48,916 nt of DNA from IMG/VR virus record IMGVR_UViG_3300028392_001777, positions 1 through 48,916 of that record. One strand, given 5' to 3'. Every line of letters starts with the position of its first letter. The first letter of the stretch is position 1. The DNA comes from a virus. This document shows, piece by piece, positions 518 through 16,068 of this stretch. The translations under genes and the position numbers were made by a program. A model generated the notes under the pieces. That model was given only the letters and a program-made list of their open reading frames with translations, was not told where the DNA came from and ran no database searches.

Positions 518-728
518 ACCTTTAGATTTTTATGTTAAGTGGTTGGCAACTATTGTTGCATTAGGTCATGTAATATTAACTGCCCACGATGTGTATCCTT
601 ACTATAAATTTACAGGTTTGTTAAGTGCTTCACTATGGATATTACTAAGTTTTCTTTGGAAGGAACCTAGTTTAATCATATTAAATTTGATTATGGCAGC
701 AATTTATATACACGGGATATTTTTATGA
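507..728 (+). CDS. small three-helix membrane protein
   Basis: A 73-residue, mostly hydrophobic protein. Three hydrophobic segments are visible at roughly residues 10-26, 33-50 and 53-72, joined by very short loops containing Tyr-Pro (VYPYYK) and a Lys-Glu-Pro turn. This size and pattern resemble the small SWEET/PnuC-like membrane proteins often carried by T4-like aquatic phages, but I cannot name a substrate. It should sit in the host inner membrane. It overlaps both neighbours (11 bases upstream, 4 bases downstream), so it is translated as part of the operon. Confidence 0.7.
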   Translation: MLNKPLDFYVKWLATIVALGHVILTAHDVYPYYKFTGLLSASLWILLSFLWKEPSLIILNLIMAAIYIHGIFL

Positions 729-1687
729 AAATATTAGTAACTGGAGGACTAGGCTTTATAGGACACAATGTAGTTCGTGTACTCGAAAGCTTTCGTCACG
801 AAGTTGCTATCATAGATAATAAAACCAACTATGGTATTATTCCACAAAAAGAATTAGACTATCTAATGCTTGAACGCTTATGTCGCATACAAACTCGAGA
901 TATTTGTATTGCTGACATATCAGAATCATTTGACGATAGTATATTTGAAAATGTAGATGTTGTCATACATCTTGCTAGTTTTCCTAGACAAAAAGTAGTT
1001 AACGCTAATCCACAATGGGGTAGTCGTATTATGAGCGAAGGATTACTTAATCTGCTTGAACTAAGTGTTAAACATAAAATTAAAAAGTTTGTTTATATTA
1101 GCTCTAGCATGGTGTATGGCAACTTTGGTAAGCACGAATTCTTTGACGGCATGGATGAAGCCGCTGATTGTCGTCCGTTAGGGCAATACGGAATTATGAA
1201 ATTAGCCGGCGAATGGTTAGTAGAGGATTATAACCGGCATAGTAATTTAAATTATACTATTATACGACCTAGTGCTATATATGGTCCTTATGATGTAGAG
1301 GATCGTGTAGTTAGCAAGTTCATAATAACAGCTATGCGCGATGGGGTATTACAAGTTAATGGCGAAAACGACGAATTAGATTTTACCTATATAGACGATG
1401 CGGCTATGGGAATAGCATTAGCTGCTGTTAGTGATGATGCTCTCAATACCACATATAACATTACCCGAGGGCAGTCACATACATTATTAGATGCGGCTAA
1501 ATTAGCTATTAACATTGTGGGAAAAGGTAAGATACAAATTAATTCTCGAGATAATAATTTCCCTCAGCGAGGGCAATTAAACACATTACGAGCTAGAAGT
1601 GATTTTGGTTACTATCCTACTGTTGATATCGAAGAAGGTTTCCAGGAATACTACGACTGGCTTATTCAATCTACAAAGTTAAAATAG
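725..1687 (+). CDS. NAD-dependent epimerase/dehydratase (extended SDR family)
   Basis: A 320-residue cytoplasmic nucleotide-sugar epimerase or dehydratase. The N-terminal Rossmann motif TGGLGFIG gives G7xxG10xxG13, with Asp31 at the end of the second strand as expected for NAD(H). The catalytic set is visible: Ser126-128 in YISSSMVYG, and Tyr155/Lys159 in YGIMK. A conserved IRPSAIYGPYD block follows, as in UDP-glucose 4-epimerase relatives, and the length is normal for the family. The gene overlaps the upstream membrane protein gene by 4 bases (ATGA) and is followed 10 bp later by a glycosyltransferase-like gene. The pair may therefore make and use an activated sugar. Which sugar cannot be told from the sequence. 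Confidence 0.88.
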   Translation: MKILVTGGLGFIGHNVVRVLESFRHEVAIIDNKTNYGIIPQKELDYLMLERLCRIQTRDICIADISESFDDSIFENVDVVIHLASFPRQKVVNANPQWGSRIMSEGLLNLLELSVKHKIKKFVYISSSMVYGNFGKHEFFDGMDEAADCRPLGQYGIMKLAGEWLVEDYNRHSNLNYTIIRPSAIYGPYDVEDRVVSKFIITAMRDGVLQVNGENDELDFTYIDDAAMGIALAAVSDDALNTTYNITRGQSHTLLDAAKLAINIVGKGKIQINSRDNNFPQRGQLNTLRARSDFGYYPTVDIEEGFQEYYDWLIQSTKLK

Positions 1688-1697: not shown

Positions 1698-3380
1698 ATG
1701 TTAAATGTTTATCAAATTCCCTTAGAAGAAATAGAAAAAATAGAATGGCATGATGATCCTGCAGCCTATGATTATGAAATTTATAAATTAGGTGGAGAGC
1801 GTGATGAATTTATAGCTGTTAATCCGTATCTTGCTATGTTAAGTAATTTTATTAACGAAATTCCAGAAGTCGGTCAAAGTAGATGTATAGTTTGGAAAAA
1901 TCAAGACAGGTGGGTGGCAAAATATTTTACTAAGCCATGGGTTGACGGAAAAAGATATAAGGAAGTAGAATTAAACTTAACTTTAGAATTAATACACGAA
2001 CTAATTTCTAAAAATGAAACTTCAATAATACCTAATTTTGCCAATAATCCTTTATTAAAATCGTATATTGTATGGGAAAGGAATCCAGATATTGACAATT
2101 ACATATCGCTTAAAGATGATCCAACAAATATTACGCTAGAAGATTTAAATGATTTAAATTATGAAATGGTATGGTATCTTGATCCTAAATTTAATCCTAC
2201 TGATGGAAAAATATGGGCAGTAAAAGCACACTTAAAAGATTATCCTAATAAAGGCACTAAAGAAATGGGATACCTAAGTCCCAAGATGAGAATGAAATTT
2301 AATCCAGAAATTCCTAGACTAGATTACCACCTTGATTATTCTATTCCATACTATGATCTTAACTATGAATTTGTGTGGTATCTTGATCCTAAGTTCAATC
2401 CCACCGACGACAAAATTTGGGCTGTAAAACTTAAATTAATAAACGGTATACCTAAGCCAACCAAAGAAATGGGGTTTGCCAGTCCCACTATCATTTATAA
2501 TCCTGAGCTACCTAAGTTAGAATACATAATCGAAGAAAATATTCCTTATTACGATTTAAAGTATACACATATCTGGTTAGTAGACGAAAATATAACCGGA
2601 ACATTTGACGACGTATGGGCTGCTAAAATTATTCCGCACGAATCCGAAGGTGTAACATTTGTAGGTAATATTAAAATCAACCTACCTAAGGTGTTGGATG
2701 TAGTGTTTATTAGCTATAACGAACCTAATGCCGAAACAAACTGGCAAAGAGTTTTGGAAAAGGCGCCACACGCTCGTCGTATTAACGGCATTAAAGGAAT
2801 TGCGGAAGCACATCGATGTGCGGCAGAGTTAGCCACTACTGATATGTTTTATGTGGTTGACGGAGATGCTTGGTTAGTAGACGATTGGAAATTTGATTAT
2901 CAGCCATATATATTCGATAGAGATTGTGTGTTTGTATGGCACAGTATTAACCCAATTAATAATTTAGAATACGGATACGGCGGAGTAAAGCTATTGCCAA
3001 GAGAATTAACATTAAACATAAATAAAGATAAGCCAGACATTACAACAAGTATTAGTAATAAAATTAAAGTTGTGAAAAAGGTTAGTAATATCACAGCATT
3101 TAATACCGATGCCTTCAATACTTGGAAATCTGCTTTTAGAGAGTGTGCCAAATTAAGTTCAAAAACAATTAATCGTCGTCTGCTTGTTGAAACTGAAAAA
3201 AGACTCGATGCGTGGAATACTATTATTAACAACGTACCATACAGCTCAGATGCCTTAGCTGGAGCGATTGCTGGCACAGCTTACGGTAAAGAAAATTTAG
3301 ATAATCCAGAAGCATTAGAATTAATAAATGACTTTGAGTGGTTACATAATTTGTATAGTAATAAAAATAAAGTTAAATAA
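1698..3380 (+). CDS. repeat protein fused to a glycosyltransferase-like domain
   Basis: A 560-residue protein with two parts. Residues about 150-325 hold three copies of a roughly 67-residue repeat beginning near residues 152, 220 and 286. The first two copies share WYLDPKFNPTD and KIWAVK, with TKEMG and NPELPKL-type segments in the linker; the third is diverged (IWLVDE, VWAAK). From about residue 330 a glycosyltransferase-like domain starts with VVFISYNEP, followed by INGIKGIAEAH and a DxD-type FYVVDGDAW motif. This second part is clearly paralogous to the protein encoded at 12880-13809 on the other strand. The repeats could bind the acceptor; that is inference. The product probably decorates a phage or host surface component with the sugar made by the upstream epimerase. 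Confidence 0.75.
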   Translation: MLNVYQIPLEEIEKIEWHDDPAAYDYEIYKLGGERDEFIAVNPYLAMLSNFINEIPEVGQSRCIVWKNQDRWVAKYFTKPWVDGKRYKEVELNLTLELIHELISKNETSIIPNFANNPLLKSYIVWERNPDIDNYISLKDDPTNITLEDLNDLNYEMVWYLDPKFNPTDGKIWAVKAHLKDYPNKGTKEMGYLSPKMRMKFNPEIPRLDYHLDYSIPYYDLNYEFVWYLDPKFNPTDDKIWAVKLKLINGIPKPTKEMGFASPTIIYNPELPKLEYIIEENIPYYDLKYTHIWLVDENITGTFDDVWAAKIIPHESEGVTFVGNIKINLPKVLDVVFISYNEPNAETNWQRVLEKAPHARRINGIKGIAEAHRCAAELATTDMFYVVDGDAWLVDDWKFDYQPYIFDRDCVFVWHSINPINNLEYGYGGVKLLPRELTLNINKDKPDITTSISNKIKVVKKVSNITAFNTDAFNTWKSAFRECAKLSSKTINRRLLVETEKRLDAWNTIINNVPYSSDALAGAIAGTAYGKENLDNPEALELINDFEWLHNLYSNKNKVK

Positions 3381-3383: not shown

Positions 3384-4679
3384 ATGTCAGACAAATCAAA
3401 TAACGATAACAAAAAAGAACCAGTAACACCGTGTAGTCCCACTGTTTGTGCTGTGCCTTGGATGCACTTAGCATTTGAACCTAGTGGGCAAGTAGTGCCG
3501 TGTTGTTTAACTTCTACCCATAATTATTTTTCTGGTAATCTTAAAACAATGACCATCGAAGAGATATGGAATAGTGATAATCAAAAAGCACTACGTAAGG
3601 AAATGCTCGAGGGTAAAGAGCCAAAGATTTGTAGTAAGTGCTTTGATCGTGAACGTGTCACCGGAGAAAGCGGTCGTGTATTCCACAATCGAGATTTCCC
3701 AGATGTTATTGAAGCTATTCCTAATATTACAGAGCCAGATGGTACTTGTACTACAATGGATTTAAAATACTGGGACTTTAGATTTAGTAACTTATGTAAC
3801 TTTAAATGCCGTAGTTGTGGACCACGCTATAGTTCTGCTTGGGTGCCAGATGCTAAGAAATTAGGATTCTCTGACCAAGAAAAAGTATGGAGTATCGATG
3901 CGGTAGATGATACTACCAACTTTAAGTTTTTAGATAATCAAATTGACAATGTAAAGCGTATCTATTTTGCTGGCGGCGAGCCGTTGCTTATGCCTGAACA
4001 CTGGCAGATTCTTGATATGTTAGTAGCCAAAGAACGATTTGATGTTAAGTTATCATATAATATTAACTGCTCTACATTAGAGTATGGCAAAAAGAACATT
4101 GTAGATTATTGGAGCAAATGGAACTTTGGCAAACTAGAAGTTTGGCCCAGTATTGACGAAATTGGTCAACGGGCTGAATTAATTCGGTCAGGAACTGTAT
4201 GGCCCAAAGTTGAAGAGAATTTAAAAATGTTATCTGGACTAAATAGTATTATACTGCGCCCTGGCATTACAGTTGGAGCATTCAATGTATTCCGTCTCCC
4301 AGAAATTATTACACATTTAGTTGATATTGGCGTTGTAAAAAAAGACCCAAGAACTAAGCGTATCAGCTACAATAACTTCTTTATTAATTTACTTGAAAGT
4401 CCAATTTACTATCATGTAAACATACTTCCAGATGATTTTAAAGAAGAAATTATTATTAAACTAAACAATTTCATAGAAGAATATAATACAAAGTATAATA
4501 CAGATATTTCAAAACTTCTAGCACATATCTTACACGAATTAACTAAGCCATTTAACGAGCAGGCTGCTAAACGATTTGTAAAACTTACAAGATCACTTGA
4601 CGAAATTAGAAATGAAAACACATATGAAACTATACCCGAATTGCAAAGAGTCAAGGAGGCTCTAAATGTTCAAGACTAA
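3384..4679 (+). CDS. radical SAM protein with N-terminal twitch domain
   Basis: A 431-residue iron-sulfur enzyme. The radical SAM cluster motif CxxxCxxC is at Cys138, Cys142 and Cys145 (CNFKCRSC), and a GGEP motif (AGGEPLL) follows for S-adenosylmethionine binding. Before the barrel lies a twitch/half-SPASM domain with Cys22 (CAVPWMH), Cys40-Cys41 (VVPCC) and Cys83/Cys86 (CSKC), which should hold an auxiliary cluster. This N-terminal order matches the twitch-domain radical SAM family of aquatic phages. Enzymes with SPASM/twitch domains usually modify peptides or proteins, but the substrate here is unknown. The gene lies 3 bp after the glycosyltransferase-like gene and overlaps the next gene by 14 bases. 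Confidence 0.88.
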   Translation: MSDKSNNDNKKEPVTPCSPTVCAVPWMHLAFEPSGQVVPCCLTSTHNYFSGNLKTMTIEEIWNSDNQKALRKEMLEGKEPKICSKCFDRERVTGESGRVFHNRDFPDVIEAIPNITEPDGTCTTMDLKYWDFRFSNLCNFKCRSCGPRYSSAWVPDAKKLGFSDQEKVWSIDAVDDTTNFKFLDNQIDNVKRIYFAGGEPLLMPEHWQILDMLVAKERFDVKLSYNINCSTLEYGKKNIVDYWSKWNFGKLEVWPSIDEIGQRAELIRSGTVWPKVEENLKMLSGLNSIILRPGITVGAFNVFRLPEIITHLVDIGVVKKDPRTKRISYNNFFINLLESPIYYHVNILPDDFKEEIIIKLNNFIEEYNTKYNTDISKLLAHILHELTKPFNEQAAKRFVKLTRSLDEIRNENTYETIPELQRVKEALNVQD

Positions 4680-5682
4680 AACAAGCATTGCAATAACAGC
4701 TAGTGATCGTAACGGGAAAGAATTAAAAGTAAAATTTAAAATTTTAGATACTGATATAGCAGATAGATGGATTAATGTTATTGAACAAAATCAAGAATTA
4801 AAGCATACATTACAAGCTAACTATAGAAAAATATTAAGTCCTGAAGAAAGACTTGAAAATTTTAACATCTTCCGCAATAATATTAAACAAATTAACGCAC
4901 AATACGACAAAGAGCTAGATGATATTGTATCCTTAGAATATTTGTTTAACAATCAAGACGTGTTGAACGATTTACACGAAGAATATGAAATTTATGGGGA
5001 TAGATTAAAAGCACTTAAAGACATAGGTTATTTTAACCGGCCAGACGAATACCCAGACTTATACGGTCCAGTATGGCCAGGTAAAAAACAAAACTTTGAT
5101 GTACATGAAAGATTTTTACGCCTAAACGAACAAATTCATAACTTTGAAGCTATCTTTAGAAATTGGGAAACCCCAGACGAAGGGTTATGTACTTGCTTAG
5201 TTGATTATATTCCAGCTGGTATACATGAACCGCTCAAGCCTGAAGATTTCTTTTTGTTTGAGTCTAACTTACAATGGGGCTGGATGTATTTAGGGTATAA
5301 TACCTTAGGTAAGCATTGGTCTAGTGTATTAAACGAAAACGACATTGAAGTAGTACATAGACACGCAGTACGCCCACAGGCCAGATTTGCCGCAGAGTTT
5401 TATATGCACTTTGGTCGCCCATCACTCACTTATGTTAGCCGTGTTAAATTTTATAACTGGTGGATGAAAAATAATTTGTCTGAAGTTGCTGATCCTGATA
5501 TGAAATTATCTGAATTAGCATTAGGTTATATCCCAATAGCTAAGTTAGCCGAATATAGTATAGATAATAGCTCCCCAATTAGTGTTCCGTATGACTGGTC
5601 TAATAAAGAAGCTAAAAACTGGAATGTAACTGTGTGGAGTAAATTTAATAAAATTACCAACGTACAAATTATGAACGAATAG
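4666..5682 (+). CDS. unknown protein coupled to the radical SAM gene
   Basis: A 338-residue protein I do not recognise. It begins with a short beta-rich stretch, continues with a charged helical region (about residues 45-140) and has an aromatic C-terminal half with blocks such as FESNLQWGWMYLGYNT and VHRHAVRPQARFAAEF. No signal peptide or membrane segment is visible. The start overlaps the end of the radical SAM gene by 14 bases and is preceded by the best Shine-Dalgarno sequence in this operon (AAGGAGG at 4653-4659, six bases before the ATG). Tight coupling suggests that it works with the radical SAM enzyme, perhaps as partner or substrate carrier; that is inference. The 3' end overlaps the convergent gene by 14 bases. 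Confidence 0.75.
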   Translation: MFKTKTSIAITASDRNGKELKVKFKILDTDIADRWINVIEQNQELKHTLQANYRKILSPEERLENFNIFRNNIKQINAQYDKELDDIVSLEYLFNNQDVLNDLHEEYEIYGDRLKALKDIGYFNRPDEYPDLYGPVWPGKKQNFDVHERFLRLNEQIHNFEAIFRNWETPDEGLCTCLVDYIPAGIHEPLKPEDFFLFESNLQWGWMYLGYNTLGKHWSSVLNENDIEVVHRHAVRPQARFAAEFYMHFGRPSLTYVSRVKFYNWWMKNNLSEVADPDMKLSELALGYIPIAKLAEYSIDNSSPISVPYDWSNKEAKNWNVTVWSKFNKITNVQIMNE

Positions 5683-6292
5683 TTGGTTGATAAAGATAAG
5701 TATTTCCTTCAATCTGTACCCAATCTGGATCATTACTTAAATCTACTTGCGGCAATGAGTGATCTTCAAACATTACAAATTGTTCATTAGTTAATATATT
5801 AAGATCGGGTCTTTCTTCAAATACAGCTTCATACCCCAAGGAGCGAGTGCGTACACATATTTCCCATGCTGCCCCGAAGAAATAAATATTTTTTATTTCA
5901 GGATGTAGTAATAAATAATATTCTAGCTCCCACCACCAGAGCATAGATATTTGATGTTTATTTGGATTTATATAATTCAATATAATAGGATTAGTTTCTT
6001 CTATTAAATTTTTGTTATTATACCTATTTAAATAATCGTGTGCGTACCGTAAATGAGGTATTTTTTTCCTAGTTGATTGTTTACACATTAATCTATTATT
6101 TTGATACCAAATGCTCTCGCCCTTTTCATGTTCTGTTTTACAATTATAGGATGCAAGTACTATTGTTTTAATACTATCCGTATTATCTAAGAAATTAGTA
6201 ATTCCGTGATAACACCTTTCTGCATCTATATCTAAACTAGGACTTTTCCAACAGTCTATCAAAATGGCAATGCTAGGTAAAGATGTAATCAT
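5669..6292 (-). CDS. isochorismatase-like cysteine hydrolase (divergent)
   Basis: A 207-residue protein that looks like a diverged member of the isochorismatase-like hydrolase fold. The N-terminal strand IAILIDCW places Asp13 where the family has its catalytic Asp, and the segment FFGAAWEICVRTRSLGYEA places Cys146 in the position of the nucleophile before the characteristic CVxxTxxxAxxxG-type helix. Length is normal for the family. The Lys of the usual Asp-Lys-Cys triad cannot be assigned with confidence, and an extra aromatic insert (MLWWWELEYYLL) precedes the last strand. The gene runs against both neighbouring operons and has its own late-type promoter, so it is expressed as a single unit. 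Substrate unknown. Confidence 0.6.
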   Translation of the reverse strand: MITSLPSIAILIDCWKSPSLDIDAERCYHGITNFLDNTDSIKTIVLASYNCKTEHEKGESIWYQNNRLMCKQSTRKKIPHLRYAHDYLNRYNNKNLIEETNPIILNYINPNKHQISMLWWWELEYYLLLHPEIKNIYFFGAAWEICVRTRSLGYEAVFEERPDLNILTNEQFVMFEDHSLPQVDLSNDPDWVQIEGNTYLYQPTIRS

Positions 6293-6311
6293 AGTAGTTT
6301 AAGTAAACAAT

Positions 6312-6319
6312 TATTTATA
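6312..6319 (-). promoter_or_regulatory. late-type promoter box TATAAATA for the 6292 gene
   Basis: The - strand reads TATAAATA, identical to the T4 late promoter -10 element read by gp55-containing RNA polymerase. It ends 19 bases before the ATG at 6292, leaving room for a short leader. No -35 box is needed for this promoter class. Confidence 0.6.
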
Positions 6320-6334
6320 CATCAATATATAGTG

Positions 6335-6342
6335 CATAAATA
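6335..6342 (+). promoter_or_regulatory. late-type promoter box CATAAATA for the 6371 operon
   Basis: CATAAATA differs by one base from the T4 late box and lies 28 bases before the ATG at 6371. The same variant occurs upstream of the gp6 gene and of the tube-cap-like gene. It is arranged divergently with the perfect box at 6312-6319, so one 78-bp gap would serve two late units. Confidence 0.5.
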
Positions 6343-6370
6343 TTATATCTTATCAAAACAAAAACTCCAA

Positions 6371-7312
6371 ATGAAAAAAATAATTAGAATTCGACAACCC
6401 GACGATGCTCCAATGCATCTTACTTGGATGATTAATAATATATGTCAAAATAGTTGTTCATACTGTCCTTCTGATTTACATGACGGTAAAAATCACTATT
6501 ACGAGTGGCAGGATGCTAAACGATTCTTTGAAATGCTATTTGAACGCTATCCTAAAATTCATTGTAGTGTTAGTGGTGGCGAACCTAGTATGAGTCCATT
6601 TTTCAAAGATATTTGTAAAACATTTCACGAAGCAGGACATACTATTGGGTTAACATCTAACGCCGCAAAATCTCCGGAATACTGGAGTGAGCTTGCTGAA
6701 TATTTAAACTATGTTTGTTTTTCGTGGCATCCAGAATTTCTCGATCCTAAATTTGCTGAAAAAGCTATTGCCGCTGGTAGTAAAAAACCAACAGTAGTTC
6801 GTATTATGATGCATCCTGCTTACTGGGATAAATGTGTTGAGGCCTATAATAATTTTTATAAAATAGAAGAAATTATTACAGAACCTGTTAAAATTATTGA
6901 CTATAATAATATAGACCCTGCGTCTTATCAGTATACGCCCGAACAACTTGAATGGTTTAATCATAATACTGGTAATCAAAGAAATTTAATGCACATAGAT
7001 CAAAACTTACCTCATCCTAAAATTTGGGCAACTTACTATTTTAATGACGGTACAGAACAATTTAAAGCTAATGCTAGCGATTATGTAAATCAAGGCATGA
7101 CTAATTTTAACAATTATACTTGCGAAGTTGGACTAAAATCATTGTTTGTAAGACCTAACGGAACTATATATTTAGGTAATTGTTTAGTTAATGGAAAAAT
7201 TGGTAATATTACTAAGCCTGATAAGATTATGTGGCCTACCAAGCCTGTTAAATGTAATCTTGATATATGTAGTTGTTCAAGCGATGTAAACATTAATAAA
7301 TGGATTGATTAA
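6371..7312 (+). CDS. radical SAM/SPASM-type protein, first of a tandem pair
   Basis: A 313-residue radical SAM enzyme. The cluster motif is at Cys25, Cys29 and Cys32 (CQNSCSYC), followed by SGGEPSMSP for SAM binding. The C-terminus has a SPASM/twitch-like set of cysteines (YTCEVG, YLGNC, then KCNLDICSC), including the usual sequence of a Gly before a Cys and a GNI turn, so at least one auxiliary cluster is likely. The ATG at 6371 is chosen over the upstream in-frame GTG at 6332 because it gives the same N-terminus (MKKII) and the same cysteine positions as the paralogue at 7313, and because the GTG overlaps the promoter box. Substrate unknown; enzymes of this type commonly act on peptides. 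Confidence 0.85.
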   Translation: MKKIIRIRQPDDAPMHLTWMINNICQNSCSYCPSDLHDGKNHYYEWQDAKRFFEMLFERYPKIHCSVSGGEPSMSPFFKDICKTFHEAGHTIGLTSNAAKSPEYWSELAEYLNYVCFSWHPEFLDPKFAEKAIAAGSKKPTVVRIMMHPAYWDKCVEAYNNFYKIEEIITEPVKIIDYNNIDPASYQYTPEQLEWFNHNTGNQRNLMHIDQNLPHPKIWATYYFNDGTEQFKANASDYVNQGMTNFNNYTCEVGLKSLFVRPNGTIYLGNCLVNGKIGNITKPDKIMWPTKPVKCNLDICSCSSDVNINKWID

Positions 7313-8257
7313 GTGAAGAAAATTATAAAAGTTCAACAATCAGAAACATCTCCATTAAATTTAACGTGGATGATTAACAATATATGTACAAATAGTTGTT
7401 CTTACTGTCCAGACAATTTACACAACGGGCAAAATCATTACTATGAATGGGAGAATGCTAAACGGTTCTTTGAAATATTGTTTGAGCGTTATCCGCGTAT
7501 TCACTGTAGTGTTAGTGGAGGTGAGCCTAGTGTAAGCCCTTTCTTTATAGAAATTTGTAAAACATTTTACGAAGCAGGACATACTATTGGCATTACCTCT
7601 AATGCTGCTAAACCTGTTGCTTACTGGGAAGAAATTGCTCCTTACTTAGCATATGCTGCATTCTCCTGGCATCCTGAGTTTCCCGATAAGAATTTTGAAC
7701 AGAAAATTATGGCTGTAGCAAAATTAAAACCTGTAACTGTACGAATTATGATGATGGCAATGGATTGGGATAGATGTTTAGAAGCTTACAACTATTACTC
7801 GGCTATTCCTGAAATTATAACAGAACCAGTCAAAATTTTGAATCACAAAGGAAAAAATATTTCCGCTCACTATTACCCACACGACTATGCCGAGTGGTTT
7901 AAAAAAAATGTAGGGAATCACAGAGAGTTAAAACACTTTGAAAATGAAACTAAAACTGTAGATATTGGTGCTACATTTTATTTTGACGATGGCACTAATG
8001 ACCAAGGCATGGGCAATGCTAGTGACTATGTTAATCAAGGCATGACTAATTTTAACGGTTATACTTGTGAAATTGGATTAAGATCTTTGTGCGTTAAGTG
8101 GGACGGGGCACTATATTTGGGTAACTGTTTAGTCGGGGGTATGATTGGTAATATTAATGATCCTGAAAATATTAGATGGCCAACAGAATCTATAAAATGT
8201 AACATAAACTTGTGCGATTGCTCAAGTGATGTAAATATTAATAAATGGATTGATTAA
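7313..8257 (+). CDS. radical SAM/SPASM-type protein, second of a tandem pair
   Basis: A 314-residue paralogue of the preceding protein, starting with GTG directly after its stop codon. Cys25, Cys29 and Cys32 occupy the same positions as in the first copy, SGGEPSVSP follows, and the C-terminal cysteines (YTCEIG, YLGNC, KCNINLCDC) are conserved. The two proteins are alike over their whole length, most of all at both ends, so they come from a tandem duplication. The middle (about residues 160-230), where substrate contacts would be expected, is the most diverged. The pair may act on two positions or two substrates, or as a heterodimer; this is inference. Confidence 0.85.
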   Translation: MKKIIKVQQSETSPLNLTWMINNICTNSCSYCPDNLHNGQNHYYEWENAKRFFEILFERYPRIHCSVSGGEPSVSPFFIEICKTFYEAGHTIGITSNAAKPVAYWEEIAPYLAYAAFSWHPEFPDKNFEQKIMAVAKLKPVTVRIMMMAMDWDRCLEAYNYYSAIPEIITEPVKILNHKGKNISAHYYPHDYAEWFKKNVGNHRELKHFENETKTVDIGATFYFDDGTNDQGMGNASDYVNQGMTNFNGYTCEIGLRSLCVKWDGALYLGNCLVGGMIGNINDPENIRWPTESIKCNINLCDCSSDVNINKWID

Positions 8258-9357
8258 TGTTTTGTAGATTCTTATCAAATACCTATCATTTTACTTACGA
8301 CAATGTAAAACCCTGCTGCTGGATTAAAAATACGCCAAGTACACAGATCAATATTCTTGATCCCGATATTAAAGGAAAGATGGAAAAAATAAGACAAATA
8401 GATGAATGGATTCCTGAGTGCAGTTATTGCTACGATTTAGAAAAAGCCGGAACTGGATCTCCAAGAACTAGAGCAGACAAAGAATCAATTTTTAGTCCCG
8501 AAGACAAATTAGGCGACATTATTAAAATTGAACTACAGATAGATGATGATTGTAATGCCGCTTGTTTAATGTGTGGGACGTGGAATAGTAGCACTTGGCA
8601 ACAATACGAAGTTAAAACACTTAAAACTAAAGAGTTGTCGTATCGTTGGAAAACAACTGTTGACGAACGTGTTGAAGCTATTACTAATATAATTGATTTT
8701 GATAAAGCAAAACAAGTTCACTTTTTTGGCGGGGAGCCATTTAATACAAATACGCAATTAAGAATATTAAAGTTAATGAAACACCCTGAAAATATAAAAC
8801 TAGTGTATGTTACTAACGGAAGTGTATTTCCGTGCGACGAAACAATAGCATTGTGGAAAAAATTTAAAAATGTAGTGGTGGCGTTTAGTATTGATGGTAT
8901 CGAGGAGCATTTTGATTATTTGCGGTGGCCGTTGCGGTGGGATCAAGTTAAAGTTAATTTAGAAAAATATACAGATTTGTGTTCTAATAAGTTTGTAATG
9001 AATACCAGTTTTACCGCAACTCCATTTAATATATTTTATATAGATAGGTATACTAAGTGGGCCGAAGAATTTTCTAAAATAAACAAAAATAATAGTTATC
9101 CAATTAATACGTGGTTTTTAAACCCTCATCCAGTAGTTGGAAATGAAATAAATATGTCATGTATTCCTTTGGCCCTGCAAGATGTTATTAAATCTAAATA
9201 CGGAGAAGATAGTAGAATAGCAAAATTACTAGTTTCTTTCAACAAAGAGCAATGTCAAACTATGCTCAATTATATAGAATTTCACGACGGTCACAGAAAA
9301 CTTAACTGGCGTAAAACATTTCCAGAAGTTGTACGATATTTCGAGGAAACAATATGA
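8257..9357 (+). CDS. second twitch-domain radical SAM protein
   Basis: A 366-residue radical SAM enzyme of the same architecture as the one at 3384: an N-terminal half-SPASM/twitch segment with Cys20-Cys21 (KPCCW) and Cys55/Cys58 (CSYC), then the radical SAM motif at Cys99, Cys103 and Cys106 (CNAACLMC) and a FGGEPF motif. Lines such as AFSIDGIEEHFDYLRW match the usual barrel strands. Compared with the 3384 protein, the N-terminal domain is shorter. Its start overlaps the previous stop by 1 base and its end overlaps the next gene by 4 bases, so it is translated with the paralogous pair. Confidence 0.87.
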   Translation: MFCRFLSNTYHFTYDNVKPCCWIKNTPSTQINILDPDIKGKMEKIRQIDEWIPECSYCYDLEKAGTGSPRTRADKESIFSPEDKLGDIIKIELQIDDDCNAACLMCGTWNSSTWQQYEVKTLKTKELSYRWKTTVDERVEAITNIIDFDKAKQVHFFGGEPFNTNTQLRILKLMKHPENIKLVYVTNGSVFPCDETIALWKKFKNVVVAFSIDGIEEHFDYLRWPLRWDQVKVNLEKYTDLCSNKFVMNTSFTATPFNIFYIDRYTKWAEEFSKINKNNSYPINTWFLNPHPVVGNEINMSCIPLALQDVIKSKYGEDSRIAKLLVSFNKEQCQTMLNYIEFHDGHRKLNWRKTFPEVVRYFEETI

Positions 9358-10190
9358 GAACAATAAGAATATACGGTGATAGTTTTGCTTTTGCCGCAAC
9401 TTTTAACAACATTAAAATGGGCTGGGGCAAAATGCTTGGAGATTTATTATCACTTCCAGTTCATAATAGTGCTGTGAGCGGTGGTAGTACAGAATATGCT
9501 ATTAAATCATTTATAAATGATATTGAAAATAATCTTATAGGAGATGATGATATTATTATCTATGTTCCAAGTAGTCCAGGGAGATTATATTTTTCATATC
9601 AATTAAATGTTGCACCAAATACAGCTGGACCATATACACATAAAACTTTTTATTTTAATCCGACAGAATCACGCGAATGGTATTGGGAAAATAAATCACA
9701 TATTGAATGGTGGATGGTCAATAATGATCGTGATATGCAAATAATCACATTCGAATCTTATATACAACTATTAAAAAACTTTGCTATTAGTAAACCAAAT
9801 TGCACAGTTATAGTGTTACCTGCTTTTCATAGTAGTAAATATAACCAAGATATTTTTAATAACTTGCCGCCGCATAATTTTTTAAGGGCTAACATTAATC
9901 TTTCTACAGTTAGCCAAATTGAAATTGATGACACAACAGAGTATGATTATTTTAAATGGACTAAATTTACTAAAGTAGATTCAAGAGTAAATCATTTAAC
10001 TCAAATAAATTTAACTATATTAGCTAATTTATTAGTCGAATCAATAAAAACATTAAATATAGATAATATTACATATGATAAATTTCAAACTAATATTATT
10101 AAGACAATTACATCTAAAGAAGAATATTTAAAATATGTCGAAAACAATATTCTACCATATCGAAAAGATATAGACCAGATAATTAGCTAA
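9354..10190 (+). CDS. SGNH/GDSL-type hydrolase-like protein
   Basis: A 278-residue protein with an N-terminal IYGDSFA motif: Asp9-Ser10 fit block I of SGNH hydrolases with Ser10 as nucleophile. NSAVSGGST further on fits block II with its Gly. Near the C-terminus, DSRVNHLTQINL gives a candidate catalytic His214, preceded by Asp209; the spacing is longer than the usual DxxH. A clear block III GxND is not visible, so catalysis is uncertain. Relatives often remove or transfer acyl groups on glycans. In this operon it could trim or acylate a sugar or peptide product. The start overlaps the upstream radical SAM gene by 4 bases and a GAGG ribosome binding site precedes it. Confidence 0.68.
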   Translation: MRTIRIYGDSFAFAATFNNIKMGWGKMLGDLLSLPVHNSAVSGGSTEYAIKSFINDIENNLIGDDDIIIYVPSSPGRLYFSYQLNVAPNTAGPYTHKTFYFNPTESREWYWENKSHIEWWMVNNDRDMQIITFESYIQLLKNFAISKPNCTVIVLPAFHSSKYNQDIFNNLPPHNFLRANINLSTVSQIEIDDTTEYDYFKWTKFTKVDSRVNHLTQINLTILANLLVESIKTLNIDNITYDKFQTNIIKTITSKEEYLKYVENNILPYRKDIDQIIS

Positions 10191-10309
10191 TGAAAACAAT
10201 AATAAACTTTTTACTAAAACCATTTCGATGGATTAAAAAACGTCGGGAATTTAAACGCAAATTAAAAGAATTGCGTAAGCAAGACCCTTTTATATATCCA
10301 TTATGGTAA
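10190..10309 (+). CDS. 39-aa basic peptide of the DPFIY type
   Basis: A short gene between the SGNH-like and oxygenase genes. The ATG overlaps the upstream stop by 1 base (TAATG) and the TAA at 10307-10309 overlaps the next gene by 7 bases. The product has 13 Lys/Arg among 39 residues, a hydrophobic start (IINFLLKPF) and ends with RKQDPFIYPLW. Small basic proteins ending in a DPFIY-like motif are familiar to me from T4-like aquatic phages, which supports it as real. No function is known. It could be a nucleic-acid or membrane-binding peptide, or a substrate of the surrounding enzymes; the latter is speculation. Confidence 0.6.
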   Translation: MKTIINFLLKPFRWIKKRREFKRKLKELRKQDPFIYPLW

Positions 10310-10968
10310 ACTATCCAACTGAACTACTCAATTTTTATAATCAAAATAAAGATTACACAAGCCCAGTATACCCATCTCTTCAAGAATCGCACGATGATGT
10401 GGAATGTGCTTACTATCCTATCAAATTTGATTTTGATACTACCTTTTTACTAAAAGAGTGTCAGGATGTTGATGATTTATACTTTAATCACCGGGGACAG
10501 GACAAGAAAAGCGGGTACGGACACGAAGGATGGCAAAGTTTGACACTACACGGCATTGACAAACACAAGACAGAGCATTATACTAAGTATGGCTTCACAA
10601 GTTTAGAAGAAGCAGGATATCATTGGACCGATGCTTGTGAACGAGTTCCAAATTTATACAAATTTTTAAGTAGTTTGCCGTTTAAAGTGTTTGACAGAGT
10701 ACGTATTATGCGATTAGCACCAGGCGGTTATATTATGCCGCATTCGGATAATAAGTACCAACGAGCTTTTAGTCCACTTAACATAGCTATTAACAATCCA
10801 GAAGAATGTTATTTTGTGTTTAAAGACAAGGGCATTGTTCCGTATCAAGCAGGATTGGGGTTAGTAATAGATGTAGGCAGAGAACACGCAGTTATTAATT
10901 TTAGCAATGAAGTGAGATATCACATTATTGTACATGGGCACTATGATAAAGGTTTTTATAGTTTATGA
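10303..10968 (+). CDS. aspartyl/asparaginyl beta-hydroxylase-like Fe(II)/2OG oxygenase
   Basis: A 221-residue cytoplasmic dioxygenase-like protein of the Asp/Asn beta-hydroxylase family. The iron ligands are visible as His147 and Asp149 (PHSD) and His195 (REHAVINF), and Arg205 ten residues later should bind 2-oxoglutarate. RIMRLAPGGYIMPH before the HxD motif and the INNPEECYFVF strand fit the double-stranded beta-helix core. Family members hydroxylate Asp, Asn or related residues on proteins or small molecules. The gene overlaps the 39-aa peptide gene upstream and overlaps the next gene by 4 bases, so it belongs to the radical SAM operon. Its substrate is unknown. Confidence 0.85.
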   Translation: MVNYPTELLNFYNQNKDYTSPVYPSLQESHDDVECAYYPIKFDFDTTFLLKECQDVDDLYFNHRGQDKKSGYGHEGWQSLTLHGIDKHKTEHYTKYGFTSLEEAGYHWTDACERVPNLYKFLSSLPFKVFDRVRIMRLAPGGYIMPHSDNKYQRAFSPLNIAINNPEECYFVFKDKGIVPYQAGLGLVIDVGREHAVINFSNEVRYHIIVHGHYDKGFYSL

Positions 10969-12344
10969 GTCTAGTTTATATACAAAAATTATTTTTAAAT
11001 AAAAAAATAAGATATGCTGTAGTGGATCAAGCACAAGTAGCATCTAAACATACAGAGCTTTTTAAGAAAATGCGTGATATAACAATTTCGCTTACTACAA
11101 GAATTGCTACTTTAACTCCTAATGGAGGCGATGTTAAGTTTTACAATACTATTGACGAAGCTATGGAAGATAGTATCAACTATGATTTGATTTTTATTCA
11201 ATCTGTTGGCAATTTTATAAAAAGCAATGAAATTTTAAAGGAATTAGAAGACTATACTAAAGCCAATCCTGATTTTTTCATGGTGGCATTTACATTGGAC
11301 TGGCAATTAGAGCACGGCAAGGGGTGGGTTGAGTGTCACCATCAAATGTTGTTTGTTAATATTAATACTTGGAAGCAAGTAGGTTCCCCTAAGTTTGGCG
11401 GTTGGGACACGGTTGAAGAAGAATTGCCTAATTATAGTCGTTCAGAAGAAAATTTCCACGACAAGTATACTCCTTACTGGATGAAGGGCGAACCCGGTGC
11501 TACATTAGGAACTAGATCCAAGCAGGGTACAGGTTTTATTAAAGCGGCATTTGAACATGGTATGAAAATTGATAACTTTACAAATGCTATGAGAAAAACT
11601 AGACTATATGTTTACCCTGAATCAGAAACTAGCGAATTACATGAAGCATTTACAAGACGAAATACTAGATTAGTAAGCAATCCTAATCAAAAAAAGTGGA
11701 TTCGTACATTAAGCCCTGCTCCTACTATTTGGATTTATAATAGTGAGCGTTATTACTTTGAAGATACCGAAAAAACTTGCGATACTTACTTTGGGCCGGC
11801 ATCTGGATTTAAATATTTAGATATTTTAAACGGTAATGAAAAAGTGAAATTTGTATTTTACGATTTCCATCAAAAATCTATAGATTGGATCAAACAACTT
11901 AAAGAAACATGGGATGGTAATGATTTCCCAGCGTATATAAACAATCAATCTGTTGAATTCAACGAATACTACAAGTATGTCAATAAAGATATCGAAACTA
12001 ATCAAGAATTATTATTTCATGATTTTGGCGGGGAAGAAAACTTTAAAGTACTATGGAATCGTTTCAAAGAATGCGAAGCCGAGTACATTGTGTGCGATTT
12101 GTTTGATTTGGAACAAGTTAAACATTTAATAGCAAAAACAAAAGGAAATGTTCCTTTCTTTTATTATAGTAATATATTTGCTACAGATTATACTGTAATT
12201 AACTTTACATTAAAAGAAATCACCGATCATCATAATGCGTTTTTGCAGTTAATTTTTGATACTTATCCCAATGGACTTACTCACGGTTGTAATGAATTTG
12301 GTGAGTGGGTCAATTCGCCAATAAAAAATATACATAATGTTTAA
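10965..12344 (+). CDS. large unknown protein of the modification operon
   Basis: A 459-residue soluble protein that I cannot assign. The N-terminal third has alternating strands and helices with YDLIFIQSVGNF, then a segment FFMVAFTLDW followed by CHHQMLFVNINTW and a GSPKFGGW turn, which looks like an alpha/beta enzyme or transferase fold. The C-terminal half contains another alpha/beta region (FVFYDFHQKSIDW; YIVCDLFDLE). It overlaps the hydroxylase-like gene by 4 bases and the methyltransferase-like gene by 8 bases. The position suggests a role in the same pathway. A glycosyltransferase-like fold is possible but not shown by a DxD motif. Confidence 0.75.
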   Translation: MSLVYIQKLFLNKKIRYAVVDQAQVASKHTELFKKMRDITISLTTRIATLTPNGGDVKFYNTIDEAMEDSINYDLIFIQSVGNFIKSNEILKELEDYTKANPDFFMVAFTLDWQLEHGKGWVECHHQMLFVNINTWKQVGSPKFGGWDTVEEELPNYSRSEENFHDKYTPYWMKGEPGATLGTRSKQGTGFIKAAFEHGMKIDNFTNAMRKTRLYVYPESETSELHEAFTRRNTRLVSNPNQKKWIRTLSPAPTIWIYNSERYYFEDTEKTCDTYFGPASGFKYLDILNGNEKVKFVFYDFHQKSIDWIKQLKETWDGNDFPAYINNQSVEFNEYYKYVNKDIETNQELLFHDFGGEENFKVLWNRFKECEAEYIVCDLFDLEQVKHLIAKTKGNVPFFYYSNIFATDYTVINFTLKEITDHHNAFLQLIFDTYPNGLTHGCNEFGEWVNSPIKNIHNV

Positions 12345-12879
12345 TAAAGATTCTTTTTCAAACGGACAAATAGATAGTAAACTATGGTTGTGTCGCGAGC
12401 TTGAAGATTTAGGATGGGACAGCGATTATACTCATATATACGCAGGGTGGTACGGAGTGCTTGCTTTTTTATTATTGAGTCGGGAAAAATTTAAAGTTGG
12501 CCGTATTGAAAGTTTTGATTTGGACCCTAATGCTGAAGCGGTTGCTGATATGATTAACGAAAATTGGGTTATTAAAGAGTGGAAGTTTAAAGCATTTACA
12601 CTAAACTGTAATCAAGGTTTAAGGGGTAATCCTGATTTAATTATTAATACTAGTAGTGAACACTTTGAAAGTATGGATTGGTTTAATAATATTCGACCTG
12701 GAACTCGTGTTATCATACAGGGTAATAATATGCCGCATGATGATCATTATGTGCATTCTGCTACATTAGAAGATTTTATATCAACTTATCCATTGTCTAG
12801 TATTGTCTATCAAGGTAGTTTAGATTTTACATACCCCGATTGGCAGTTTACTAGATATATGGTTATTGGTACTAAGTAA
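12337..12879 (+). CDS. class I methyltransferase-like protein
   Basis: A 180-residue protein with the layout of a small Rossmann-fold methyltransferase. The first strand region THIYAGWYGVLAFLLL stands where motif I would be, and RIESFDLDPNAEAVAD provides the acidic end of strand 2 (FDLDP) that usually binds the ribose of SAM. PDLIINTSSEHF would be motif IV and GTRVIIQGNNMP the next strand. The glycine-rich loop of motif I is not canonical, so activity is uncertain. It is the last gene of the + strand operon and abuts the convergent gene at 12880 with no gap. Confidence 0.62.
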   Translation: MFNKDSFSNGQIDSKLWLCRELEDLGWDSDYTHIYAGWYGVLAFLLLSREKFKVGRIESFDLDPNAEAVADMINENWVIKEWKFKAFTLNCNQGLRGNPDLIINTSSEHFESMDWFNNIRPGTRVIIQGNNMPHDDHYVHSATLEDFISTYPLSSIVYQGSLDFTYPDWQFTRYMVIGTK

Positions 12880-12886
12880 TTACCAA
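12866..12886. other. inverted repeat across the convergent gene junction
   Basis: TTGGTA (12866-12871) and TACCAA (12881-12886) form a perfect 6-bp stem with a 9-base loop that contains both stop codons of the convergent genes. There is no T-run on either side, so it is not a standard intrinsic terminator. It may slow polymerase or protect the 3' ends, or may be chance. Confidence 0.3.
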
Positions 12887-13809
12887 CCTTCTTGACGGCG
12901 GATAACATCAATCTCGCGAGTCATAACTGCATGATTAACATATTTCTTACGTTGATGATCTTTAAAAAACATACTAGCAGCTTCGTCTAACATAACTATA
13001 GGCAAATTAAGCTGAGAAATTAAATCGCCGGATATTCGCGCGGCAATTTGCTCAGGATCATGCCCATCTATTGTGCTAAAAATTTTCTCGAGAGCATCAA
13101 AGCTCTGTACATTTCTATAATCCCACTCAGGAGTAATCATTAACATATATGTACCCATCCTAGCGCCAAGCATAGCCCAAATACCGTTTTCTACGTCGCG
13201 TCCAACATTTTGCCATATAGTTAAATGGTCAAGATTTCGTTGATGTACTTGCTGTTTAAATTTTACTATTGTTGGTTTTGCTCCGCGGTCAAGACACATC
13301 TTAACTCCTTCTCGGAAACCTGCACGCCATGCTTGAAATGGTGTTTGATTAGGAAAGGTTGTGGAGTAAGTATTATGCATTGCCCAATATAACGGGTCAA
13401 AACAAAATTCTACTTCTGTTTCAGTGCGACCATCTGTATTCTCATGAGTTTTCATGTTGTTTACAAATGTTTTAGTCCATGAACTAATGCCACCGTTGCC
13501 ATAACATAATCCGTTAATGTAATTAATTGCCTTCCAACGAAATACTGCCTGCTCCCACTCTTCGTCAGGAAATTCTAATGTAAGATCAAAGAAATCGTCC
13601 TCGGGCATATTGTCGCCGTCAATAAGAATAAAGCGTTCTGTTTCGCTAGCGGCAGCGGCGGCTTTGTGTGCGGCATCTGAGCCCTTAACTCCGTCAACAC
13701 GTTTGGCCCAAGGTATCATATTTTTGATTTCAACCCAAAACTTTTCTTTTTGCGGCTCGTCGTAGCTCAAGTATATGCAATCTAAATCTGCTATATCGAT
13801 GCGTTTCAT
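12880..13809 (-). CDS. glycosyltransferase-like protein, paralogue of the 1698 protein
   Basis: A 309-residue protein resembling the C-terminal part of the 560-aa protein at 1698-3380: CIYLSYDEP matches VFISYNEP, RVDGVKGSDAAH matches RINGIKGIAEAH, and FILIDGDNMPEDDF matches its DxD-type DGDAW motif. FQAWRAGFREGVKM corresponds to FNTWKSAFRECAKL. The threefold repeat of the paralogue is absent. I choose the ATG at 13809 because it overlaps the upstream stop as ATGA and has GGAG six bases before it; the GTG at 13821 would only add four residues. It is the last gene of the - strand glycosyltransferase operon. Confidence 0.75.
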   Translation of the reverse strand: MKRIDIADLDCIYLSYDEPQKEKFWVEIKNMIPWAKRVDGVKGSDAAHKAAAAASETERFILIDGDNMPEDDFFDLTLEFPDEEWEQAVFRWKAINYINGLCYGNGGISSWTKTFVNNMKTHENTDGRTETEVEFCFDPLYWAMHNTYSTTFPNQTPFQAWRAGFREGVKMCLDRGAKPTIVKFKQQVHQRNLDHLTIWQNVGRDVENGIWAMLGARMGTYMLMITPEWDYRNVQSFDALEKIFSTIDGHDPEQIAARISGDLISQLNLPIVMLDEAASMFFKDHQRKKYVNHAVMTREIDVIRRQEGW

Positions 13810-14132
13810 CTTAAACTCCACTTAATATTAGGTTCATGCTCACTAACAACAATACTTACATCACTGGGATGGCAAGGAGTGCCTATTTCGTCTGGCCTTA
13901 ATTTTACAACACTTGGTCTGTGTGTAATTACTAACTGATTATTAATTACTCTAGCATGAGTAGGCGGATTTATGTAGGTAGTGTGATCAATGTCTATATA
14001 CTTACCAGGTAAATCCTCCATAGAGTAAAATAATGGATATCCTTGGTCATTGTAGTACAATCTATATATAGGAGTGCTAACTTCTTGTGGCAATAATGCG
14101 GCCCAAAATTCTGCTTCGGTCATTTCACTCAT
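13806..14132 (-). CDS. small unknown protein of the glycosyltransferase operon
   Basis: A 108-residue soluble protein. It starts with an acidic helix (MTEAEFWAALLP) and continues with beta-rich sequence (PIYRLYYNDQGYPLFYS, YIDIDHTTY, HARVINNQLVITHR). I see no catalytic motif. The gene overlaps the upstream gene by 8 bases and the downstream glycosyltransferase-like gene by 4 bases. The tyrosine-rich strands and the HTTYINPP segment resemble small phage proteins of unknown role; the tight overlaps argue that it is real and works with its neighbours. Confidence 0.65.
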   Translation of the reverse strand: MSEMTEAEFWAALLPQEVSTPIYRLYYNDQGYPLFYSMEDLPGKYIDIDHTTYINPPTHARVINNQLVITHRPSVVKLRPDEIGTPCHPSDVSIVVSEHEPNIKWSLR

Positions 14133-14916
14133 TACTCCACTCCTTTATATGATAATGTACTAAACCCCATTGAGCGATTGTGTTTAATCTTAGCCCAGGA
14201 TTAGTATTTTCCCACACTAACTCATTGGTCCAGTCTTCTGTTATAATAGGAATTATGTTCTTTTTCATGTGTACCATTGTAGGACCCATACCTAAAGGTA
14301 GTGTAGCATTTTCTATCCCGATAATATTAGCGGCTATAGCATAAACTACATCGGTAGTAGGAATATCATCAGGATATTTTAATAATGCTTTGTATTTGTC
14401 CCAATATTCAAAAATATTACTTACTAGGCCAAAAAATTCTTCTGCGGTATTACTTTGTTTCCAATAAGTAATTCCGTTATATACATCAGGTAAATTATTA
14501 TCGTCAAATAATTTTCTGTAGACTCTAGAAACGCCTGAATTGTCATAAAAATCTCGACAACCTTGACTAATAGCTACATTTCGATATGCCAGTAATTCCC
14601 ACCAGTGGTCTATAGGACTAGCGCACCACATATCTGCTTCAAGTTTAATAGTTTCCTGATAAGGAGTCGCTTCGTATACTTGCCAATCATTGGATAATTT
14701 CCACGATGATTCCTTAGCTTGATCTCCGTAAGGTAATAATTTAATAATGTCAAACTCATCTGCTTTAATCATCATATCTGTTAATAAACAAATATTTACT
14801 TCAGGGTGCCACTGCCGAATACTGCGGGCTAATTTTTTAGCGCACAATACATAATCTGTGTTTTTAGTGTTAACAGCTGGAATCAAATAACCGCGTTCAA
14901 GTAGATTTAGCAACAA
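14125..14916 (-). CDS. glycosyltransferase-like protein (GT8-like), first paralogue
   Basis: A 263-residue GT-A-type protein. DYVLCAKKLARSIRQWHPEVNICLLTD near the start is typical of glycogenin-like transferases, and TIKLEADMWC near residue 93 stands in the place of the DxD metal site but with Glu-Ala-Asp. VYNGITYWKQS corresponds to the usual acceptor-side loop. It aligns with the next upstream protein (14897-15697), which has a true Asp-Ala-Asp at the same depth. No ATG fits the start; TTG at 14916 or 14913 follows an AGGAGA ribosome binding site inside the upstream gene, so the exact start is uncertain by one codon. Confidence 0.7.
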   Translation of the reverse strand: MLLNLLERGYLIPAVNTKNTDYVLCAKKLARSIRQWHPEVNICLLTDMMIKADEFDIIKLLPYGDQAKESSWKLSNDWQVYEATPYQETIKLEADMWCASPIDHWWELLAYRNVAISQGCRDFYDNSGVSRVYRKLFDDNNLPDVYNGITYWKQSNTAEEFFGLVSNIFEYWDKYKALLKYPDDIPTTDVVYAIAANIIGIENATLPLGMGPTMVHMKKNIIPIITEDWTNELVWENTNPGLRLNTIAQWGLVHYHIKEWSNE

Positions 14917-16017: not shown

Positions 16018-16023
16018 GCTTTT

Positions 16024-16052
16024 ATTATACTACAGAAAGGTAAAAAAGTAAA
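16024..16052 (-). promoter_or_regulatory. sigma70-type promoter for the glycosyltransferase operon, probably leaderless
   Basis: On the - strand TTTACT (complement of 16047-16052) and TATAAT (complement of 16024-16029) are separated by 17 bp. The -10 box is followed by six bases and then the ATG at 16017, the same spacing as at the 272 promoter. The -35 box overlaps the T-run of the terminator of the tail module. Confidence 0.55.
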
Positions 16053-16068
16053 GAGTTTAGTTCTCTTT
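16042..16068 (-). terminator. intrinsic terminator of the tail module
   Basis: Reading the - strand after the stop at 16087, AAAGAG (complement of 16063-16068) pairs with CTCTTT (complement of 16050-16055) around a 7-base loop, followed after AC by six Ts (complement of 16042-16047). The stem is AT-rich and short, but its place between two - strand operons fits a Rho-independent terminator. Confidence 0.5.

Follow-up and report, generated by a model that had tools for sequence, protein, structure and literature searches.

A recurrent island of radical SAM genes beside the tail-fibre genes of an uncultured T4-like phage, with a probable role in glycan tailoring

Gene content and layout

The window (the whole 48,916-nucleotide stretch of DNA analysed) comes from a large, uncultured, T4-like aquatic phage, and it contains an island of radical SAM genes adjoining the tail-fibre genes. 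Every ORF named between 3384 and 12879 in an initial annotation is present, in two near-continuous plus-strand runs separated by one minus-strand gene. The two operons proposed there both exist, but the first reaches further upstream, starting at an epimerase gene at 725 and including a glycosyltransferase-like 560-aa protein at 1698. Genes within the island overlap tightly.

725..1687, plus strand: NAD-dependent nucleotide-sugar epimerase/dehydratase, dTDP-glucose dehydratase-like (phrog_540, E 5e-50)
1698..3380, plus: u560, three repeats and a C-terminal domain homologous to gt313, with which it clusters; DGD motif
3384..4679, plus: twA, twitch-domain radical SAM protein of the u338-adjacent clade (NF033640, E 2.5e-108; tree)
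4666..5682, plus: u338, new protein family, regularly adjoining twitch radical SAM genes
5669..6292, minus: 207-aa protein, possibly cysteine-hydrolase/isochorismatase-like; D13 and C146 invariant; own late-type promoter
6312..6342: divergent late-type promoters, TATAAATA on the minus strand (6312-6319) and CATAAATA on the plus strand (6335-6342)
6371..7312, plus: rsB1, radical SAM protein with SPASM-like C-terminal cysteines (PF04055, E 3.7e-10; alignment)
7313..8257, plus: rsB2, rsB1 paralogue, 62% identical (PF04055, E 3.6e-8)
8257..9357, plus: twC, twitch-domain radical SAM protein (NF033640, E 8.7e-53; tree)
9354..10190, plus: SGNH-like hydrolase/acyltransferase (YGDS and DxRxNH motifs)
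10190..10309, plus: p39, 39-aa ORF of the peptide family ending in LKELRKRDPFIYK; this copy carries an additional PLW
10303..10968, plus: aspartyl/asparaginyl beta-hydroxylase-like Fe(II)/2OG oxygenase with complete ligands (PF05118, E 5e-12)
10965..12344, plus: u459, GT-A-like N-terminal part and a second domain (model pLDDT 79; PDB fold matches)
12337..12879, plus: mt180, class I methyltransferase/spermidine-synthase-like (profile match, E 0.005; 31 relatives)
12880..13821, minus: gt313, putative GT-A-like glycosyltransferase, DGD motif; conserved alongside islands
14125..14916, minus: gt263, GT8-like glycosyltransferase (family profile)
14897..15697, minus: gt266, GT8-like glycosyltransferase (family profile)
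15694..20008, minus: tail-fibre block (u107, u329, u317, fib427, u202), flanking the island in relatives; fib427 carries a chaperone-like domain

The perfect TATAAATA at 6312-6319 faces left, into the 207-aa gene, whereas the radical SAM operon has its late-type site, CATAAATA, at 6335, 28 nt ahead of an ATG at 6371. A relative (L003) and the promoter spacing both place the start of rsB1 at that ATG and not at a GTG at 6332. Of the seven [CT]ATAAATA copies in the window, six precede a gene in the matching orientation by 19-50 nt, and the second operon is predicted to be expressed late, from its upstream late-type promoter.

Enzyme families and new protein families

The two twitch proteins recognised initially are confirmed: both pass the curated 170-bit cut-off of NF033640 (twitch domain-containing radical SAM protein), twA with 362.7 bits and twC with 179.8 bits, and both carry the CxxxCxxC radical SAM motif (CNFKCRSC and CNAACLMC, respectively). 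Residues 22-86 of twA additionally match PF13186, an N-terminal cysteine domain. The twitch radical SAM family is large and phage-enriched; twA homologues occur in 65 viral loci, and up to 17 NF033640 matches occur in a single record. Twitch paralogues split in the tree into position-specific clades, with 44 of 44 in one clade (support 1.0), a pattern that matches the expectation for successive steps. The clade of twA has the same support, and twC groups with second-position paralogues of other islands.

Both rsB1 and rsB2 pass PF04055, with an invariant CxxxCxYC motif and C-terminal cysteines (C264, C308, C313) kept in at least 90% of the alignment. Their earlier description as SPASM-type paralogues is retained as 'SPASM-like', since the Pfam SPASM domain (PF13186) is unmatched in either protein and only the C-terminal cysteines are conserved. 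Sequence searches of solved structures returned no relative for twA or rsB1, and tblastn against 50,697 cultured-phage records found only weak Vibrio phage matches for twA and none for twC or rsB2. A defence reading of the four radical SAM proteins, including as antiviral prokaryotic viperins, was rejected: NF038283 scores were at most 31 bits against a cut-off of 180, and the PADLOC matches span the radical SAM core only.

The hydroxylase passes PF05118 (46.3 versus 22.6 bits), and its ligands H147, D149, H195 and R205, correctly called complete at the outset, are invariant in eight relatives, although a solved-structure sequence search found no PDB relative. Known PF05118 enzymes act on Asp/Asn side chains of proteins or on lipid A, the lipid A hydroxylase LpxO being a member. 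The epimerase matches TIGR01181 at E 7e-32, below the cut-off of that model. Two further assignments are weak: the SGNH-like hydrolase keeps G8-D9-S10 and D209..H214 in 11 relatives but has a sub-threshold Pfam match, and a methyltransferase-like identity for mt180 is suggested only by the spermidine synthase profile. The 207-aa protein, with a sub-threshold nicotinamidase match (E 1.1), is a putative cysteine-hydrolase/isochorismatase-like protein.

Of the two proteins initially listed as unknown, u459 has a candidate GT-A-like fold. No PDB fold matches u338, it was absent from 399 of 399 bacterial genomes, and neither it nor the LKELRKRDPFIYK peptide is described in the open-licence literature searched; it is a previously undescribed family, fused to a radical SAM protein in some phages, of rsB type in locus L037. 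The u459 model matches GT-A enzymes, among them the capsid glycosyltransferase of PBCV-1, at E 4e-5 with modest TM scores of 0.2-0.4; it has no evident DxD metal motif, its second domain looks Rossmann-like, and it too is fused to a radical SAM protein in some phages, again of rsB type in locus L018. Neither PHROGs nor PADLOC assigned u338, u459 or the 207-aa gene to a specific family. Among the remaining candidates, the family profile of gt263 and gt266 matches glycogenin (E 5e-5), single-sequence searches giving no Pfam match. Judged from its sequence, u560 is a putative GT-A-like glycosyltransferase; it has no Pfam match, gt313 has no PDB sequence match, and database searches lend neither any glycosyltransferase support.

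The p39 ORF belongs to a widespread, previously undescribed family of 33-40-aa peptides with a variable N-terminus and the invariant C-terminus LKELRKRDPFIYK (the DPFIYK peptide). Its members mainly precede a carbamoyltransferase gene (66/116) or an SGNH gene (28/116), and in many phages lie next to twitch radical SAM arrays. In a replication-gene context there is no radical SAM gene nearby. A tblastn search of the same 50,697 cultured-phage records gave no match, with a low-complexity filter that may have masked the queries.

Conservation in phages and bacteria

The island is an ordered module that recurs in many aquatic phages. Relatives are colinear in the order twitch radical SAM - u338 - (rsB, SGNH) - hydroxylase - u459, with u459 after the hydroxylase in 17 of 17 loci. 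The initial annotation had named co-occurrence in T4-like phages beforehand as the point on which its proposal of a multi-step, phage-carried pathway would turn; the colinear core found in relatives supports that proposal, and chance assembly is excluded because the genes co-occur. The region is also hypervariable, the methyltransferase, SGNH copies, epimerase and p39 being gained and lost across relatives. Related islands additionally hold a DegT sugar aminotransferase, a NodU-type carbamoyltransferase and an amidinotransferase closest to StrB1 (4e-66); the window itself has no carbamoyltransferase.

All three bacterial twitch radical SAM loci that were opened adjoin glycosyltransferases, two of them within RmlD/ABC-2 exporter/TylF/WbsX and GT2/GT41/epimerase/methyltransferase clusters. 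Plasmid searches for twitch radical SAM genes were empty.

Possible functions of the island

We consider it probable that this is a late-expressed glycan-tailoring island, acting on a glycan of either the virion or the host surface. Glycan tailoring is favoured because GT8-type and glycosyltransferase-like genes, the epimerase and tail fibres adjoin the island, u459 has a GT-A-like model, related islands hold sugar-type enzymes and the bacterial loci sit beside glycosyltransferases. Against it stand the lack of a characterised close homologue for any island enzyme, the known action of PF05118 enzymes on proteins and lipid A, the modest u459 fold scores and its missing DxD, the unsupported glycosyltransferase calls for gt313 and u560, the weak SGNH and methyltransferase assignments, and the small number of bacterial loci (n=3). 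We infer a sugar as substrate, as well as the order of steps and the attachment site. The epimerase would make or divert a nucleotide-sugar, on which the four radical SAM enzymes would carry out separate radical steps (e.g. dehydration, epimerisation, deoxygenation or C-methylation); the 2OG oxygenase would hydroxylate the product, the methyltransferase-like protein methylate it and the SGNH protein add or remove acyl groups. With u338 as a constant partner of the lead twitch enzyme, assembly of the glycan may fall to u459, u560/gt313 and the GT8 pair, the attachment site being either the host surface or a virion protein, of which a tail fibre is the likeliest.

A narrower possibility, exclusion of other phages through changes that the enzymes make to host lipopolysaccharide or capsule, with the virion left undecorated, can be entertained tentatively. 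It would suit the membership of LpxO in PF05118 and the polysaccharide clusters around bacterial twitch loci, but late expression and tail-fibre adjacency suit virion decoration at least equally, and none of the island genes was recognised as encoding a membrane flippase, ligase or Gtr-like membrane protein. Modification of a virion protein or of the 39-aa peptide by the radical SAM enzymes, hydroxylase and methyltransferase, in a RiPP-like or carrier-peptide pathway, a reading close to the protein modification suggested initially, appears improbable. Peptides are often the substrate of SPASM/twitch enzymes, PF05118 includes Asp/Asn-acting hydroxylases, and a conserved peptide does lie in the island and beside twitch arrays in many phages. 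However, Pfam scans found no RiPP recognition domain (RRE/PqqD), the peptide usually pairs with carbamoyltransferase or SGNH genes, in some cases far from any radical SAM gene, its fixed C-terminus and variable N-terminus reverse the arrangement of most RiPPs, and the window's closest relatives lack it in their colinear islands. Bacterial twitch loci, moreover, are glycan loci, and glycan tailoring is the better supported of these two readings.

Modification of phage DNA bases was considered because relatives carry a carbamoyltransferase, and a phage carbamoyltransferase of the NodU/TobZ family is known to act on 5hmC (PMC8670742). Some relatives place peptide and carbamoyltransferase between primase- and helicase-like genes, or, in our reading of one cluster (c33), near a dCMP deaminase-like gene. 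Yet the 5hmC system requires a thymidylate-synthase-type hydroxymethylase, and the thymidylate synthase/dCMP hydroxymethylase family is missing from 8 of 12 carbamoyltransferase-bearing records, seven of these eight exceeding 170 kb and including the window's nearest long relative; with the island beside tail fibres under late-type promoters, and no carbamoyltransferase in the window, DNA hypermodification is highly improbable. Nearly as improbable is a pile-up of unrelated auxiliary genes that do not act together: hypervariability and the variable presence of several genes would fit, but the fixed twitch radical SAM-u338-hydroxylase-u459 order, tight overlaps, fusions and position-specific clades would not.

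It is tempting to speculate that twitch radical SAM, u338 and peptide form the core of an assembly system that is new and specific to phages. The basic peptide, with its fixed C-terminal LKELRKRDPFIYK and its gene lying between u338 and an enzyme that transfers carbamoyl or acyl groups, would serve as docking or carrier for an exotic carbamoylated, guanidinylated virion sugar; we regard this as doubtful. If glycan tailoring is correct, the genomes of uncultured T4-like phages from aquatic habitats contain, at the host-recognition site, long and ordered sugar-chemistry pathways such as we know from no well-studied model phage; a glycan of the virion or host surface, as their possible product, may shape who infects whom. 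A large radical SAM family that is enriched in phages would also gain a testable function, with u338 and the DPFIYK peptide as marker families.

The setting is already known. PMC7029224 describes the host recognition cluster of pelagimyophages and cyanomyophages as a hypervariable region adjoining the tail fibres in aquatic phages of the T4 type, where radical SAM genes occur as cassettes together with several GT8 glycosyltransferases; in pelagimyophages such GT8-rich islands are read as altering the host surface. The present island is alike in adjoining tail-fibre genes and in its GT8 and further glycosyltransferases. The earlier statement that the set has no described function holds for the open-licence literature searched, although radical SAM cassettes have been reported from this island type. 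What is new is the ordered core, the u338 family and the widespread peptide family; the passages of PMC7029224 that were read describe neither this core nor the rsB pair or the peptide. Related phage islands, taken together, also share a toolbox with aminoglycoside sugar tailoring (StrB, TobZ, BtrN/AprD4 and HygX types), namely the StrB1-nearest amidinotransferase, carbamoyltransferase, sugar aminotransferase, radical SAM, 2OG oxygenase and methyltransferase, although the window has only part of the set and the radical SAM families differ. Two bacterial clusters (G096, G764) resemble the window in placing twitch radical SAM genes beside sugar genes (RmlD, TylF-type O-methyltransferase, epimerase, glycosyltransferases); in G096, which contains four twitch radical SAM genes in a row together with an export transporter, neither u338 nor the peptide was found.

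Gene content and candidate late promoters

The window, a 48.9-kb piece of a T4-like myovirus record, has genes for the baseplate wedge and tail fibres at 18-40 kb; every gene named in the initial annotation between 3384 and 12879 was found. Both twitch-domain radical SAM proteins, twA and twC, exceed the curated family cut-off, and the hydroxylase described as having complete ligands is positive in a PF05118 family scan, its four ligands being invariant in eight relatives. The radical SAM paralogues rsB1 and rsB2 have SPASM-like C-terminal cysteines but leave the SPASM Pfam model unmatched, while the SGNH-like hydrolase is recognized by its conserved motifs and the methyltransferase-like protein by a weak profile match. 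The first operon starts upstream of the island as first described, with a nucleotide-sugar epimerase at 725 and then the 560-aa protein u560, which has one domain in common with the window protein gt313. The start of rsB1 is placed at 6371 by comparison with a relative (L003).

1698-3380, 560-aa protein u560
3384-4679, twitch radical SAM protein twA
5669-6292, minus strand, 207-aa gene inside the island on the opposite strand, with its own late-type promoter; its product possibly has a cysteine-hydrolase fold
8257-9357, twitch radical SAM protein twC
10190-10309, 39-aa ORF p39 between the SGNH and hydroxylase genes

The window has seven [CT]ATAAATA sites, six of which precede a gene in the matching orientation by 19-50 nt, in positions that make up 2.2% of the sequence; the genes behind them include tail-fibre, baseplate gp6 and rsB1. 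The late-type promoter suspected for the second operon is thus supported, by the site before rsB1, one base off the T4 consensus; a perfect TATAAATA near 6312 is the site of the opposite-strand 207-aa gene. Flanked by the tail-fibre genes on one side and the baseplate wedge gene on the other, a single 5348-aa ORF (20186-36232) is predicted to encode a giant structural or fibre protein.

Conservation of the island as a unit

Viral scans with twA and the hydroxylase returned 65 and 14 loci, respectively, and window proteins mapped onto these loci fall in identical order in many contigs; most records are fragments, and genes were mapped with a simple longest-ORF caller. The protein u459 directly follows the hydroxylase in all 17 clustered hydroxylase loci (about ten lineages by our count, as several overlap within one contig or are near-identical), and a twitch-u338 pair lies upstream of the hydroxylase in every locus extending far enough, with rsB, SGNH and second twitch genes as insertions variably present. 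Fusions to an rsB-type radical SAM domain occur for u338 (L037:11223-13268) and for u459 (L018, 3344-5782; L019; L021). The core genes co-occur in the same order in relatives and form a unit.

In a fast-method tree of 249 twitch proteins, all 44 u338-adjacent copies of carbamoyltransferase-type islands fall in one clade (support 1.0), separate from a twA clade that takes in 14 of the 16 copies next to u338 in islands of twA's own type (support 1.0), and twC groups with second-position copies (support 0.93). Such position-specific clades fit distinct steps, each with its own enzyme, and not recent duplication. In peptide-bearing related islands as many as six twitch genes stand in a row, typically just before u338. 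One 303-kb viral record (G005, the IMG/VR record behind L052) has up to 17 twitch family matches.

A small peptide family

The terminal motif of p39 recurs in relatives. The pattern LKExRxxDPFIY matched at least 119 viral stretches (L081-L199) and, across bacterial and archaeal genomes totalling 257 Gb, one place only, a control that supports our estimate of chance matches. The lone match, on a MAG contig of Gammaproteobacteria MED685 (L200), lies in a cluster of phage type, with twitch, GT-like, epimerase, oxygenase-like and methyltransferase-like genes, and is probably viral sequence inside the MAG.

Members are 33-40 aa long with a fixed C-terminal LKELRKRDPFIYK; the motif (consensus MNWIKNLYNRIKLEIRYRKKLKELRKRDPFIYK) was at the extreme C-terminus in all 80 loci first examined, and no PHROG or annotation was found for the family. 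Positions outside the search pattern are conserved too and synonymous sites vary freely (48% difference at third codon positions, 11% at second), which shows selection acting on the peptide itself. Among 116 loci, the ORF overlaps the following gene by 4 nt in 92; a carbamoyltransferase gene follows at 66 loci and an SGNH gene at 28, and the preceding gene is u338 (43), SGNH (21) or primase-like (19).

With its PLW extension p39 is a family outlier, and it is absent from the island of the window's nearest relatives (G001, G013), where a peptide-carbamoyltransferase pair lies ~16 kb off, outside the window-equivalent stretch. Their carbamoyltransferase ORF (L203:12093-12995, L204:6608-7510) has only 301 aa against ~490 aa elsewhere, and is perhaps split or truncated. 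In L085 the peptide is fused onto the C-terminus of an SGNH protein. A second setting is seen in L088, L089, L123, L141, L158 and L167: the peptide and carbamoyltransferase genes have a primase-like gene on one side and a helicase-like gene on the other, and no twitch gene is close by.

Glycan context and rival readings: ALTERNATIVES

A role in glycan chemistry is the preferred reading of the island. Its neighbours include a GT8-like pair (glycogenin match), gt313, the epimerase and the tail-fibre block. The predicted model of u459 is GT-A-like, with fold matches including the PBCV-1 capsid glycosyltransferase and Mimivirus R699, and related islands encode a sugar-type DegT aminotransferase, a NodU-type carbamoyltransferase and an amidinotransferase with streptomycin StrB1 as its best match among solved structures (E 4e-66). 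Modification of a peptide by the island enzymes, which their classes permit and for which p39 offers a peptide in place, appears unlikely, as gene context and peptide architecture speak against it. Carbamoylation of DNA, known for a related carbamoyltransferase (PMC8670742), is more improbable still, since a thymidylate-synthase-type hydroxymethylase was not found in eight of 12 carbamoyltransferase-bearing records, seven of the eight exceeding 170 kb and including the window's nearest long relative.

In a published analysis (PMC7029224), pelagimyophages are described as carrying, at their tail-fibre genes, a 'host recognition cluster' that contains GT8 enzymes and radical SAM cassettes and is interpreted there as modifying the host O-chain; this bounds the novelty of the island. 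We lean slightly towards attachment on the virion over the host surface because of the late-type promoters and the fixed tail-fibre neighbourhood.

The twitch family is rare in bacteria: within one phylum, three of the 399 genomes have it above cut-off, among them G020, the MAG with the phage-like cluster noted above, and in a class it is one of 385; u338 was found in none of the same 399. All three bacterial twitch loci examined have a glycan-related setting: four twitch genes are flanked by ABC-2 exporter/RmlD and TylF/WbsX genes in G096, one lies beside GT2, GT41, methyltransferase and epimerase genes in G764, and one is ~1 kb from a GT2 gene in G131.
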